A DNA stretch of 33,960 bases, from positions 1-33,960 of the IMG/VR virus record IMGVR_UViG_3300017917_003928; one strand, given 5' to 3'. The notes under the pieces were generated by a model, which did no database searches, was not told the origin of the DNA, and worked only from the letters and a program-made list of their open reading frames with translations. This document shows, piece after piece, positions 25,145 through 33,403 of the stretch. How positions within the stretch are numbered: the first letter of the stretch is position 1; every line of letters begins with the position of its first letter. Both the position numbers and the translations under genes were made by a program. This stretch comes from a virus.

Positions 25145-25421
25145 AATTTTGTTGATCACACAAGAGGAATGCGCAGAAGTCACGCAGGCCATCAGCAAGT
25201 GCTATCGTTTTGGCTTGGACAATGTCAAACCCGGCAAACCAAAAACCAACAGACAGCACCTGGCCGAAGAGCTGGGTGATTTACAGGCCATGATCGATCT
25301 ATGCATTGTGAATGGTTTGGTCAGTCGACAAGATGTCGAACAGGCCAGTGACAACAAAATTGCCAAACTAAAAGTATGGTCGGATATTTTTAAAGAAGAA
25401 CACAATGAAAATCAAAGTTAG
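25125..25421 (+). CDS. MazG-like nucleotide pyrophosphohydrolase
   Basis: The ATG at 25125 gives 98 residues; the earlier in-frame ATG at 25098 lies further into the upstream gene. The metal-binding helices are visible: EECAEVTQAISKCYRFG (helix with EExxE) and HLAEELGDLQAMIDL (ExxD). MazG-like proteins hydrolyse NTPs, dNTPs or alarmones to monophosphates and pyrophosphate. Phage versions may lower (p)ppGpp or clean up non-canonical nucleotides, of interest here because the phage likely makes deazaguanine bases. It overlaps both neighbours (20 nt with the reductase, 17 nt with queE). Confidence 0.8.
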   Translation: MNSKENEILLITQEECAEVTQAISKCYRFGLDNVKPGKPKTNRQHLAEELGDLQAMIDLCIVNGLVSRQDVEQASDNKIAKLKVWSDIFKEEHNENQS

Positions 25422-26265
25422 TGAAATTTTTTACAGTGCACAAGGTGAAGGACGCTTTGTTGGCGTACCCAGTGTATTTTTAAGAACATTTGGTTGCAAC
25501 TTTACTTGTTCAGGTTTTGGTTGTGCACCTGGTGTCAAGAGTACCGAAGCCGACGAAGTGGCCAAGAATGTGCACTTGTACAAGGACTTCAACAGCCTGC
25601 CCTTGGTCAATACTGGCTGTGACAGTTATGCCAGCTGGCATCCTGCTTTCAAAGAACTCAGCCCAACACACGACACTGATACACTGGTCGATAAGTTGTT
25701 GGCGCTGACCCCCAACAACAAGTGGGTGCAAGACAATGGCAACGATGTGCACTTGGTGATCACTGGCGGTGAACCCTTGCTGGGTTGGCAACGTGCATAT
25801 CAAGACCTACTGTCGCACCCACGCATGGCAGATCTTACAAATATCACTTTTGAAACCAATGGTACACAAGATCTGCAGCCCAAGTTCAAAGAATATCTGA
25901 ATGTTTGGGAATCGGATTCGTTTGATCGAGAAATTACATTCAGTGTGAGTCCCAAACTCAGTGCCAGTGGCGAACTGTGGGCGGAGGCCATTCAACCTGC
26001 GGTGGTTTGCGAATATCAAAAGTTTGGCACAGCATATCTCAAGTTTGTGGTGGAAACAGAACAACACTTTGCTGAAGTGGACCAAGCAGTTACAGAATAT
26101 CGTGCAGCAGGATTCCGTGGTCTTGTTTATGTGATGCCACAGGGCGGTGTGGTAACTCCCTATGCTGCCAACCGTGTGCGAGTTGCTGACTGGGCACTGA
26201 GTCGAGGTTATAACTACAGCCCTCGACTGCATGTGGATCTTTGGGGAAATGGATGGGGCAAATAA
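25405..26265 (+). CDS. queE: 7-carboxy-7-deazaguanine synthase
   Basis: The 286-residue radical SAM protein converts 6-carboxytetrahydropterin (QueD product) to 7-carboxy-7-deazaguanine (CDG). IFYSAQGEGRFVG (8-20) is the QueE start signature. FGCNFTCSGFGC (29-40) holds the iron-sulfur cysteines with Cys31, Cys35 and Cys40; the usual spacing is CxxxCxxC, so the third Cys is displaced by two residues. VITGGEPLLGWQR (118-130) is the SAM-binding GGEP motif. The C-terminal part contains LYVMPQGG. It overlaps the MazG-like gene by 17 nt and is joined by TAATG to nadE. The length is greater than E. coli QueE (223), with an insertion after the cysteines. Confidence 0.92.
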   Translation: MKIKVSEIFYSAQGEGRFVGVPSVFLRTFGCNFTCSGFGCAPGVKSTEADEVAKNVHLYKDFNSLPLVNTGCDSYASWHPAFKELSPTHDTDTLVDKLLALTPNNKWVQDNGNDVHLVITGGEPLLGWQRAYQDLLSHPRMADLTNITFETNGTQDLQPKFKEYLNVWESDSFDREITFSVSPKLSASGELWAEAIQPAVVCEYQKFGTAYLKFVVETEQHFAEVDQAVTEYRAAGFRGLVYVMPQGGVVTPYAANRVRVADWALSRGYNYSPRLHVDLWGNGWGK

Positions 26266-30450: not shown

Positions 30451-30744
30451 ATGAGTAGACCCAAGCCCACTGTTCTCGTAGAACTGACCAACAAGGCAAC
30501 TTACAAGTCTGAGCAGGTGCTCAGCAGCGAAGGAGTGTGGGCTGTGTTCTACGACAGTAGACCAATCAATTTGAAAACATCAAATCTGTTGGTACAATAC
30601 CCCGGACCCAAATACAAAAAAGTCAGTTTCAGCAATCCAGGACATGCCATAAATTTGGCCAGAAAGCTCAATACACAATTTAAAACAGACAAATTCACAG
30701 TGGTATTGTTGCAACAAGGCAAGCAAATTTATCCCAGTGCGTGA
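30451..30744 (+). CDS. Conserved phage hypothetical protein, 97 aa
   Basis: The 97-residue protein is beta-rich and basic (TVLVELTNKATYKSEQ, then VWAVFYDSRPINLKT, and PGPKYKKVSFSNPGHA). Such small beta proteins occur next to MazG-like and rnh genes in T4-like phages. No function is recognised. No Shine-Dalgarno sequence precedes the ATG, and the octamer at 30439 lies just upstream. The next gene begins at a GTG in its 3' end. Confidence 0.65.
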   Translation: MSRPKPTVLVELTNKATYKSEQVLSSEGVWAVFYDSRPINLKTSNLLVQYPGPKYKKVSFSNPGHAINLARKLNTQFKTDKFTVVLLQQGKQIYPSA

Positions 30745-31099
30745 TAGACACACTCTTACTCAACAACTGATCAAACAGTTACCTGCTGACTACTGCACAC
30801 TGGAAGAAGCCATGTTGACCTGGTGGTACAACATAAGAGATTCGGGTGGCATGCGACTGTCGCGCCGTGGATACGATATTTTTGTCAAACAGTTGAAGAT
30901 TGAACACTATGATTATGTTGTGCAGTCTGACACCAAATTCACACCTGGTGTGATATTGGCTTTGGATCGTAGATTGCAAACGCCCTACTATGTGGCCAGA
31001 GAAAAAGGCAGATACAAATTGGTATTTTTTGGTAGTAGAGAAGCTGTACTGATCAATCTCTACGGAGACTTAGAAAATTTTTTAAACAGTCTTGATTGA
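30737..31099 (+). CDS. Conserved T4-like phage hypothetical protein, 120 aa
   Basis: A GTG start at 30737 overlaps the preceding stop region (8 nt) and gives 120 residues. CTLEEAMLTWWYNIRDSGGM then RLSRRGYDIF is a block I recall in T4-like cyanophages. YYVAREKGRYKLVFFGSREAV follows as a beta-hairpin and helix. Function unknown. It is the last gene before the promoter of the tRNA cassette, whose -35 box overlaps its stop. Confidence 0.7.
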   Translation: MRDRHTLTQQLIKQLPADYCTLEEAMLTWWYNIRDSGGMRLSRRGYDIFVKQLKIEHYDYVVQSDTKFTPGVILALDRRLQTPYYVAREKGRYKLVFFGSREAVLINLYGDLENFLNSLD

Positions 31100-31124
31100 C
31101 TAGTCAAGCAAAGATCTATATAAT
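31096..31124 (+). promoter_or_regulatory. Sigma70-type promoter for tRNA-tctC-omp
   Basis: TTGACT (31096-31101) and TATAAT (31119-31124) have 17 bp between them. The start would be near 31131, 2 nt before the tRNA 5' end. The -35 overlaps the stop of the upstream gene. Confidence 0.88.
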
Positions 31125-31132
31125 CAAATTTT

Positions 31133-31209
31133 GGGCCTGTAGCTCAGTTGGTTAGAGCAGGCGACTCATAATCGCTTGGTCGGGGGTTCAAGTCCCTCCG
31201 GGCCTACCA
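31133..31209 (+). tRNA. tRNA-Ile2 (anticodon CAT), CCA encoded
   Basis: A 77-nt cloverleaf is visible: acceptor GGGCCTG with CGGGCCT (G1-T72 and T6-G67 wobbles), D arm GCTC/GAGC, anticodon stem GGCGA/TCGCT with loop CTCATAA, T stem GGGGG/CCCTC with loop TTCAAGT, discriminator A and encoded CCA. The anticodon CAT would suit Met, but the anticodon arm closely resembles E. coli ileX (tRNA-Ile2), in which C34 is changed to lysidine by TilS to read AUA. The call as Ile2 rather than elongator Met rests on this arm. Supply of an AUA reader is a common reason for phages to carry this tRNA. Confidence 0.85.
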
Positions 31210-31239
31210 GAATGTTTTTTTATTACAAGGAGAAAATAT

Positions 31240-32181
31240 ATGAAAAAACTATTGACCGCAATTGCTATTGCACTTGCTTCCATGACCACATGGGCGCAAT
31301 CTACTGTGGAGCTGGTTGTGCCTAGCACGCCAGGTGGCATTGCCGACAAATTGGCACAAGTTATTGCAGCAGGTGCCCGACCCGAGTTTGCCAAACAAGG
31401 CATCACACTGGTGATTGCATACAAGCCGGGCGTGTCTACTGTGTTGGGTGCCAATGCTGTGGCCAGCACCGAACCTGGTAAAATCAGTTTCATGGTGACC
31501 AATAACGCCACACTCACTGTTCCCTTCTTTACTCCCAATGTGGCCACTTATGACATCGGCAAAGATTTTGCATTGATCAACTATCTAGGCTATGTGCCAG
31601 GTGTGATTGTGGCCAGCCCTGCATCCGGCATCAAAACCGCAGCTGACTGGCGTGCTGCCTGTGCTGGCGGCAAACTTACCTATGGTTCGCCCGGGGTAGG
31701 CGGCACCAGTCATATTTCAACCGAAATGATCAACAACCATTTTGGTTGCAAGGCCTTGCATGTGACCTACAAAGGTGCCTCTAACGTTGTAACAGATCTT
31801 GTGGGTGGACATGTGGGTTACTACAGCGGCTTTTTGGGCGACACCCAACAGTTGATCGAAACCGGCAAACTCAACGCTGTCATGGTCATGGACCAAAATC
31901 GTTTGCCCGAACTGCCCAATGTACCTACTGTGTATGAGCTGGGCTACAAAGATTACAACTTCTACAACTGGTTTGTGTTGGTGGCCAATGCCACTGCCAA
32001 GCCTGCAGATATAGCACAGGCTCAGCAGATTTTCACCCGTGCAATGAACATGCCAGAAACTGCTGCAAAATTACAAGAAGCAGGGCTACGGGGCAGAAAA
32101 GCACAGCCAGCTGACTTTTTGGCCAAAGAAAAACAGAGCTTTGCCAAAAATTTGCAAACAATCAATATCAAAACCAATTGA
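31240..32181 (+). CDS. TctC/Bug-type extracytoplasmic solute-binding protein
   Basis: The 313-residue protein has a Sec signal peptide (MKKLLTAIAIALASMTTWAQ, cleavage after AWAQ region) and matches the Bug family (TctC) that binds carboxylates for tripartite tricarboxylate transporters. VELVVPSTPGGIADKLAQVIA is the typical ligand-binding start. Other blocks are LTYGSPGVGGTSHISTEMI, VTYKGASNVVTDLVGGHVGYY, LPELPNVPTVYELGY and FYNWFVLVANA. The membrane components TctA/TctB are absent from the window. Bug proteins are greatly expanded in Burkholderiales. An AAGGAG site is 7 nt before the ATG. It lies in the cassette from promoter 31096 to the terminator at 32735. It may raise uptake of an organic acid in the infected host. 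Confidence 0.92.
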   Translation: MKKLLTAIAIALASMTTWAQSTVELVVPSTPGGIADKLAQVIAAGARPEFAKQGITLVIAYKPGVSTVLGANAVASTEPGKISFMVTNNATLTVPFFTPNVATYDIGKDFALINYLGYVPGVIVASPASGIKTAADWRAACAGGKLTYGSPGVGGTSHISTEMINNHFGCKALHVTYKGASNVVTDLVGGHVGYYSGFLGDTQQLIETGKLNAVMVMDQNRLPELPNVPTVYELGYKDYNFYNWFVLVANATAKPADIAQAQQIFTRAMNMPETAAKLQEAGLRGRKAQPADFLAKEKQSFAKNLQTINIKTN

Positions 32182-32223
32182 TTTTTTGCTATTATCGAAC
32201 AAGCACAATAAGTAAACTGCGTT

Positions 32224-32246
32224 CTTAAAACACGTTGTGTTTTAGG
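32224..32246 (+). other. Hairpin in the leader of the outer-membrane protein gene
   Basis: CTTAAAACAC (32224-32233) and GTGTTTTAGG (32237-32246) pair over 9 of 10 positions around a GTT loop. It is 19 nt upstream of the ATG and followed by only a partial T run, so it may stabilise the mRNA or separate it from tctC. An AAGGAA site follows before the ATG. Confidence 0.45.
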
Positions 32247-32265
32247 ACTTTTACAAAGGAAATTT

Positions 32266-32715
32266 ATGAAAAAAATTGCAATTGCCTCCCTGATCGCTTT
32301 GGTTGCCACTGCGGCTTCTGCACTGGAAGTTGGTGTGACCTCTAGCCGTGATTTTGCTGCTACTGATCGCAATGCCGCTGGCGTTACATTGAGCCAACAG
32401 GCTGGTGCTGTCAAGGTGACCCTGGGTGCCGAGCGTACCACTGTTGGAGCCAACGATCAAAATCGTTACAGCCTGGTTGCTGGCTACAATGTGGTAAAGG
32501 TTGGTCCTGCCACTGTTGCTGCCAAAGCAGGTGGTGTTTATGTTGCCAATCAAACTGGCAATGACGGTTATGCTGCTGTGGTTGGTGCTGGCGTGTCTGT
32601 GCCTGTGTCCAAACAAGTTGCTGTTGGCGTGGATGTGGTCCGTCAAATGGGTCAAGATCGCATTGCCTCCAGTGATGGCAACCGCGTGACCGCTGGTGTG
32701 TCTTTCCGTTTCTAA
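32266..32715 (+). CDS. Small outer-membrane beta-barrel protein
   Basis: The 149-residue protein has a Sec signal peptide (MKKIAIASLIALVATAASA) and a mature chain of alternating hydrophobic and polar residues, typical of an eight-stranded barrel (for example LEVGVTSSRDFAATDR and AVKVTLGAERTTV). The last residue is Phe (VSFRF), the outer membrane assembly signal read by BamA. Several VGVGAGV-like strands suggest an OmpX/OmpW-like or short porin-like barrel. It is closed by an intrinsic terminator at 32735. The gene probably came from a Gram-negative host. A phage-encoded outer-membrane protein could block receptors or change permeability; this is inference. Confidence 0.8.
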   Translation: MKKIAIASLIALVATAASALEVGVTSSRDFAATDRNAAGVTLSQQAGAVKVTLGAERTTVGANDQNRYSLVAGYNVVKVGPATVAAKAGGVYVANQTGNDGYAAVVGAGVSVPVSKQVAVGVDVVRQMGQDRIASSDGNRVTAGVSFRF

Positions 32716-32734
32716 ACTGATCGCACCGCAAATC

Positions 32735-32760
32735 AAGCCCACTTAGGTGGGCTTTTTTAT
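32735..32760 (+). terminator. Rho-independent terminator after the omp gene
   Basis: AGCCCAC (32736-32742) and GTGGGCT (32747-32753) form a 7-bp GC-rich stem around a TTAG loop, extended by A/T pairs, followed by TTTTTTAT. It is the strongest terminator in the window and ends the tRNA-tctC-omp cassette. Confidence 0.92.
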
Positions 32761-32794: not shown

Positions 32795-33403
32795 ATGCGT
32801 ATCAAAGACATTGTGGCTGGCCCAGTCAACGAAGCTATCAATCGCCGTGGATTTCTGCGTGGGCTGGGTGCTGCTGCTGTGGCAGCAGGCACAGGGGCTG
32901 CTCGTGCTGGTCAAGAACCCGACGAAGAAAACGTCTACTGGGGTGTGCGCAAAGACTACACTGAAAAACCGCAAAAGCTCATACCCAATACCACTGTGAA
33001 CAAACCCAATCAGTATGTGCCTGAATATAATGTAATAATTTATGATCGCGGTGTTTTTAATGCCATGAACTACAAAGACTTTGTGTTTATCAAATCTACC
33101 CCAGGCATTGAATTTGAAACATTGCCGCCGGGTACCATACCGGGCATCAATGAAAAAACATTGCTCACACAGTTGGGCGAATACAACTACTTTGTGACTC
33201 AGAGCGCGGCCACAAAGTTTGCACAGGAATACAATGTGGCTCAAATGTCCAAGCGCAATCTTGATGCCAAACAAAGAATGGCACGGGGCGATCGCAGTTT
33301 TGACACCATGGTGAAAAATGTACCTCCGGGATCGGCGTTTGATCGTGGTCATATACAGCAACCCCAAATGCCCTGGCAAATCAATCAAGTTAAAAATATT
33401 TGA
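32795..33403 (+). CDS. Protein with Tat-like signal, function unknown
   Basis: The 202-residue protein starts MRIKDIVAGPVNEAI, then a twin-arginine motif NRRGFLRG (16-23) and a hydrophobic Ala/Gly stretch to about residue 38 (cleavage near ARA). This is a plausible Tat signal with a longer n-region than usual. The N-terminus also fits a capsid-targeting leader (VNE at 11-13, then Ala). The mature part contains YWGVRKDY, VPEYNVIIYDRGV and a segment with FDRGHIQQPQMPW near the end. No family is recognised. No Shine-Dalgarno sequence is seen and the octamer at 32783 lies just upstream. Late structural expression would fit the leader; Tat export in the host would fit the arginines. Confidence 0.6.
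   Translation: MRIKDIVAGPVNEAINRRGFLRGLGAAAVAAGTGAARAGQEPDEENVYWGVRKDYTEKPQKLIPNTTVNKPNQYVPEYNVIIYDRGVFNAMNYKDFVFIKSTPGIEFETLPPGTIPGINEKTLLTQLGEYNYFVTQSAATKFAQEYNVAQMSKRNLDAKQRMARGDRSFDTMVKNVPPGSAFDRGHIQQPQMPWQINQVKNI

Follow-up and report, generated by a model that had tools for sequence, protein, structure and literature searches.

A putative accessory transcription unit bordering a variable island in a freshwater jumbo phage: a conserved promoter and CAU tRNA followed by exchangeable genes for a TctC-like protein and a predicted outer-membrane barrel

The DNA analyzed here (the window) is a viral fragment of 33,960 bases (record IMGVR_UViG_3300017917_003928, positions 1-33,960), which encodes a DNA polymerase B, an RNase H-type exonuclease, ClpP, a sugar-nucleotide cluster and genes of the deazaguanine pathway. 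Among named phages, the closest counterparts of its RNase H belong to jumbo phages, among them Xanthomonas XaC1, Pseudomonas PA5oct and Pectobacterium CBB (41-47%). The source phage appears to be a large freshwater jumbo phage of lytic type within the kin group of PA5oct and CBB. Its host probably belongs to the freshwater Burkholderiales, since permuted tmRNAs of the beta type and Porin_4 porins were found and the nearest TctC proteins came mostly from Comamonadaceae/Cupriavidus plasmids. Genes for 7-deazaguanine synthesis comprise GTP cyclohydrolase I (PF01227, 15965-16666), a QueD-like PTPS (PF01242, 18019-18525) and a gene at 25405-26265 that is QueE-like judging by its sequence; they perhaps serve DNA modification. 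For the region under study, a first-pass annotation had described a layout of promoter, tRNA-Ile2, tctC-like gene, omp and terminator. All of these parts were found in place, each on the plus strand.

The promoter (31096-31124) is of the sigma70 type with the sequence TTGACT-17-TATAAT. It matches the consensus at 11 of 12 positions and overlaps the stop codon of the upstream gene (30737-31099, plus strand), a gene of unknown function which closes a conserved block and forms the left border of a variable island. Within the last 5 kb of the window it is the best of eight promoter matches, and a score of 11/12 was reached in 0.4% of shuffled sequences. It is not a chance match, since 13 of 16 relatives have a promoter match of at least 10/12 located 7-9 nt ahead of the tRNA. 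Transcription is predicted to start at approximately 31131, about 2 nt before the tRNA gene (31133-31209), which bears out the distance proposed earlier. The tRNA (Rfam RF00005, 68 bits) has a CAT anticodon, from which ARAGORN labeled it as tRNA-Met. The best E. coli matches, however, are loci annotated as tRNA-Ile (87-88% identity), and therefore the gene most likely encodes tRNA-Ile2, which would read AUA after lysidine modification. ATA accounts for 92 of the 633 Ile codons in the window, corresponding to 8.4 per thousand codons. The sequence TTGACTAGTCAA at 31096-31107, a perfect 12-bp palindrome, covers the -35 box. It is a possible candidate operator but may have arisen by chance, as it is not conserved in the relatives.

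The gene tctC (31240-32181) encodes a putative periplasmic solute-binding protein of 313 aa belonging to the TctC/Bug family (PF03401, E 8e-41). The match extends over positions 12-246 of the 274 profile positions and scored 140.8 bits, compared to a curated cut-off of 27. The nearest solved structures are those of the terephthalate-binding protein TBP (8hka, E 9e-34), Bug27 and BugD. Both tctC and omp are preceded by ribosome-binding sites (AAGGAG and AAAGGAAA, respectively), and both products possess, as the first-pass annotation had noticed, Sec-type signal sequences, which were read from the sequence and end at alanine sites; that of TctC is MKKLLTAIAIALASMTTWAQ. The best plasmid-borne TctC proteins revealed 31-35% identity to the protein of the window. 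An exact-peptide scan of 84,980 species genomes yielded no close relative, and no relative was found in the viral collection with the single protein as query. In a phylogenetic tree, the window TctC falls beside bacterial TctCs on a long branch with a support of 89/80, i.e. moderate to weak, and one bacterial row of the underlying set (L134) looks mistranslated. Codon usage of the gene is phage-like (codon fit z +0.9, GC3 z +1.4, GC z 1.6). No match to TctA or TctB (PF01970, PF07331) was detected in the 34-kb window, a fragment that ends inside the island, so that these genes could lie beyond it. In bacteria, orphan Bug proteins are likewise numerous.

The second gene, omp (32266-32715), encodes a protein of 149 aa including its signal peptide. 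Its AlphaFold model is an eight-stranded barrel (pLDDT 86, pTM 0.76), for which Foldseek returned OmpA-TM, NspA and OmpX; the nearest predicted viral structure (BFVD) is a barrel of an uncultured phage (Caudovirales; 42% identity, E 2e-13). The score against the YfaZ profile was below the threshold (20.9 against 23 bits). With its signal sequence, eight modeled strands and a C-terminal Phe that is invariant in the family alignment (A3), omp has the predicted features of a phage outer-membrane barrel. Its family comprises 111 relatives in viral contigs. By tblastn against phage GenBank and in PHROGs no match to omp was obtained, and an alignment scan of 84,980 species genomes (597 candidate stretches) confirmed no relative of the family among the matches listed. 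The codon usage is again phage-like (codon fit z +1.1, GC3 z -0.2), only the overall GC content being high (z 2.8). The earlier suggestion that both proteins look host-derived finds no support in view of the viral family of omp, this codon usage and the low identity (at most approximately 35%) of the window TctC to the bacterial TctCs found.

Many omp copies at other sites have control elements of their own. A promoter of at least 10/12, located approximately 50 nt before the start codon, was detected in 28 of 59 unique copies (4% in shuffles), and a terminator within 90 nt in 37 of 59. Directly upstream of omp, a permuted tmRNA of the betaproteobacterial type is present in 15 of 36 sequence clusters; the tmRNAs at these loci (L142-L193, L010-L028) encode ordinary, ANDEQFALAA-like tags. 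No tmRNA was found near omp in the window. A promoter belonging to omp itself was considered here as well and rejected, the best match being 8/12. The family adjoins PstS in eight loci, and in L142-L145 omp is followed by TctC; a periplasmic binding protein beside a barrel is a recurrent arrangement.

The gap between tctC and omp contains a hairpin (32222-32247; fold of the gap -12.8 kcal/mol), which is possibly a stem in the 5'-UTR of omp or a processing site. In omp relatives, a short hairpin often lies between the promoter and the ribosome-binding site. Downstream of omp, an intrinsic terminator (32735-32754; -12.8 kcal/mol) consists of an 8-bp stem, a 4-nt loop and a T tract. The gene beyond it (32795-33403, plus strand), also in the variable island, encodes a protein of 202 aa with a Tat-type signal (TIGR01409). 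Its single homologue (57%) is encoded on phage contig L111, flanked by a TctC gene and a permuted tmRNA. As this only homologue resides on another phage contig, the possibility that the end of the window is contaminated was considered and rejected.

To compare the site between phages, relatives were gathered via the RNase H gene, which gave 80 related viral loci. In most of them the gene order from RNase H to the gene at 30737, including the gene at 30451, is largely kept. The closest relatives (L034-L038, L042, L043, L096) possess a CAT tRNA at the same place, with a promoter of 10-12/12 located 7-9 nt ahead of it. Between the stop codon of the upstream gene and the tRNA there are 33 nt in the window and 32-34 nt in L034, L037, L038, L042, L043 and L096. 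The promoter precedes the tRNA by 8 nt in L034, L037, L042 and L043 (tRNA 33 nt past the same upstream gene) and by 9 nt in L038 (34 nt). In L035 and L036 the upstream block and the CAT tRNA are 64 nt apart, and L031 has an additional gene in between; the promoter scan gave no match before the tRNA of L031. More distant relatives have mostly retained the pair of promoter and tRNA.

What follows the tRNA differs between the relatives. One version contains a gene for a protein of 180 aa, a barrel of 182 aa and a permuted tmRNA, another version genes for HNH, RF-1-domain, PP-loop and barrel proteins. The omp family of the window was absent from all 46 related records searched, and no close relative was found to carry the same tctC-omp pair at this site, so that an exchange has to be inferred from the differing cargo of the relatives. 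Since the promoter and the tRNA are constant and the protein genes change, the former belong to the phage core and the latter appear to be exchangeable cargo. The promoter and CAU tRNA thus form a conserved phage element that marks the left border of a variable tRNA/tmRNA island, and the cargo behind the tRNA often consists of envelope proteins. For the same reason the cassette is not gained and lost in one piece, contrary to the idea that related phages either have or lack the entire segment. In L195, the first gene is again the upstream gene of the block, and a TctC of its own is followed by a barrel; this TctC is only about 24% identical. Full-size Gram-negative porins (Porin_4) are also encoded by phages in the island (L096:6400-7521, L111:12142-13023), the L096 copy right behind the tRNA. 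A small RF-1-domain protein of the ribosome-rescue type is encoded in the variable island of L038 (13225-13599) and L111 (6105-6479), in L111 directly 3' of the tRNA, and some such islands also contain a tmRNA.

TctC genes are not restricted to the window. Eight of the 46 related records contain such genes (13 in total), and the majority of phage TctCs group in separate clades in a tree. A coherent phage clade comprises at least 84 viral contigs, some of which exceed 300 kb (up to 374 kb); this number was obtained with a sub-clade alignment, because the phage TctCs as a whole were too divergent for a single query alignment. Two or more TctC genes are present in 29 of 80 TctC loci, and TctA was found in one of 24 related records. 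A gene for a PP-loop protein lies within approximately 4 kb of TctC in 51 of the 80 loci and is adjacent to it in 36. The median dN/dS was 0.07 for phage TctC, 0.15 for omp and 0.03 for the PP-loop gene, with dS near saturation for TctC and PP-loop. Hence, the TctC and omp families are under purifying selection in phages, and genes of this kind for envelope proteins are common and selectively maintained in big freshwater phages.

In our opinion, the data are best explained, with a probability of roughly 0.6, by an accessory transcription unit at the island edge, in which the promoter and CAU tRNA are owned by the phage and the transcript runs through the swapped-in genes tctC and omp to the terminator. 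This assumption is based on sequence and comparison, namely on the parts and their order, the conservation of promoter and tRNA, the turnover of the genes, the family memberships and purifying selection. Neither tctC nor omp has a separate promoter above 8/12 ahead of it in the window, which makes the tRNA promoter the probable driver of both. Unmodified host RNA polymerase would start early at this sigma70-type promoter, and a single transcript would span tRNA, tctC and omp and end at the strong terminator. Activity within the first minutes of infection, as proposed in the first-pass annotation, is plausible given a promoter of host type. The tRNA-Ile2 would supply AUA decoding, and TctC may bind a periplasmic carboxylate and pass it to a TctAB-type permease, which is assigned to the host because the window encodes none. 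The barrel may alter the outer membrane and in this way aid uptake or mask a phage receptor. An eight-stranded barrel is normally without an open pore, which makes a role in uptake doubtful.

The own promoter and terminator and the exported proteins would also be expected of a classic moron, that is, if promoter, tRNA, tctC, omp and terminator had been acquired jointly from a bacterial host in a single recent event. A GC content a little higher than the phage average (z 1.6 for tctC, 2.8 for omp) and the position of the window tctC, nearer to bacterial than to phage TctCs, agree with such an origin. However, relatives without tctC and omp still conserve the promoter and tRNA, omp belongs to a phage family, codon usage is phage-like (z +0.9 and +1.1), and no bacterial TctC above approximately 35% identity was found. 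Of the moron layout put forward in the first-pass annotation, the unit with its own signals is supported, and its exported-protein genes are missing from this spot in close relatives, but a single host-derived insertion finds no support. This origin is already disfavoured and we regard it as improbable.

It is conceivable, albeit rather unlikely, that both envelope proteins serve mainly in superinfection exclusion or receptor masking, with the cell surface and periplasm changed in such a way that competing phages can neither adsorb nor inject. Small barrels are often carried by phages, here and at other places, omp is often under a strong promoter of its own, and the lambda protein Lom is expressed from the prophage (PMC7067206). 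On the other hand, exclusion or receptor masking leaves the solute-binding protein unexplained, and the PP-loop and DctP-like genes that repeatedly accompany TctC seem to be metabolic. Neutral carriage of tctC and omp downstream of a useful tRNA gene, without a role in infection, would be in line with the variable cargo of this site. The purifying selection on both families (dN/dS 0.07 and 0.15) as well as the intact reading frames, signal sequences, ribosome-binding sites and terminator make this very improbable.

Regarded as an accessory unit, the cassette is a variant of known phage auxiliary or moron-like genes. It shares with temperate-phage morons accessory genes with an own promoter and terminator, but here promoter and tRNA are phage core, the phage is a lytic-type jumbo phage and there is no sign of a recent bacterial origin. 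PstS-like binding proteins are known phage auxiliary genes; PstS and the window TctC are both phage-borne periplasmic binding proteins thought to feed a host transporter, although they differ in protein family and ligand class. Like TBP, Bug27 and BugD, the window TctC has a full-length PF03401 domain, a signal sequence and motifs such as PGG, YGSxGxGGTSH and YKG; unlike them, it is phage-encoded, lacks TctA/TctB in the window and shares no more than about 35% identity with the bacterial members found. The fold of lambda Lom is a barrel. As a small, signal-bearing phage barrel, omp resembles Lom, the cyanophage OMP (PF24653) and barrels of uncultured Caudovirales, but lies downstream of a binding-protein gene and probably depends on a tRNA promoter. 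In Pfam, the omp family gave no match to the Lom family and matched PF24653 weakly in four of 19 members (best E 0.005), not including the window protein. In the literature searched, no account of TctC-type proteins in phages was found, only a tctA domain match in SUP05 viruses (PMC4164917).

If the TctC proteins feed host uptake, infection by these phages would steer how abundant freshwater bacteria use organic acids. In addition, the site suggests how jumbo phages exchange envelope genes downstream of a promoter and tRNA that stay in place, and the linkage of tmRNA and barrel asks for explanation. The wider pattern of TctC and PP-loop genes is the part worth following. Tentatively, the tRNA/tmRNA islands of large freshwater phages may contain, in scattered form, an undescribed kit for taking over envelope and metabolism, made up of TctCs, a PP-loop enzyme of a new type, DctP proteins without signal and promoter-wired barrels, which together might capture an extracellular carboxylate and convert it in the infected cell. 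The TctCs of such a kit would comprise the phage-specific clade and strays like that of the window, the PP-loop protein would be ATP-pyrophosphatase-like, and the strong promoters of the barrels would be those of a tRNA or tmRNA.

The PP-loop family (approximately 390 aa) has an SGGxDS motif and a new N-terminal part and adjoins TctC in L112, L114, L116, L117, L121, L122, L124, L128 and L194-L273. No match to this protein was found in phage GenBank. An identity with QueC was rejected because of weak hits (Pfam E 0.005), and the AlphaFold model gave weak matches to carbapenam synthetase, GMP synthetase, TilS and LarE. As sequence and structure matches are weak, the protein was left unnamed. Proteins of the DctP family (PF03480) without a signal peptide, and hence apparently cytoplasmic, are encoded beside TctC in L112 (318-1277), L116 (379-1350), L110 (16253-17251) and L244 (5046-6005). 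In one phage (L128:2332-5584), TctC-like, TctA and PP-loop genes overlap in this order, possibly representing a phage-borne partial transporter operon. The window itself contains another membrane-modifying phage gene, a fatty-acid desaturase (PF00487) at 1478-2194.
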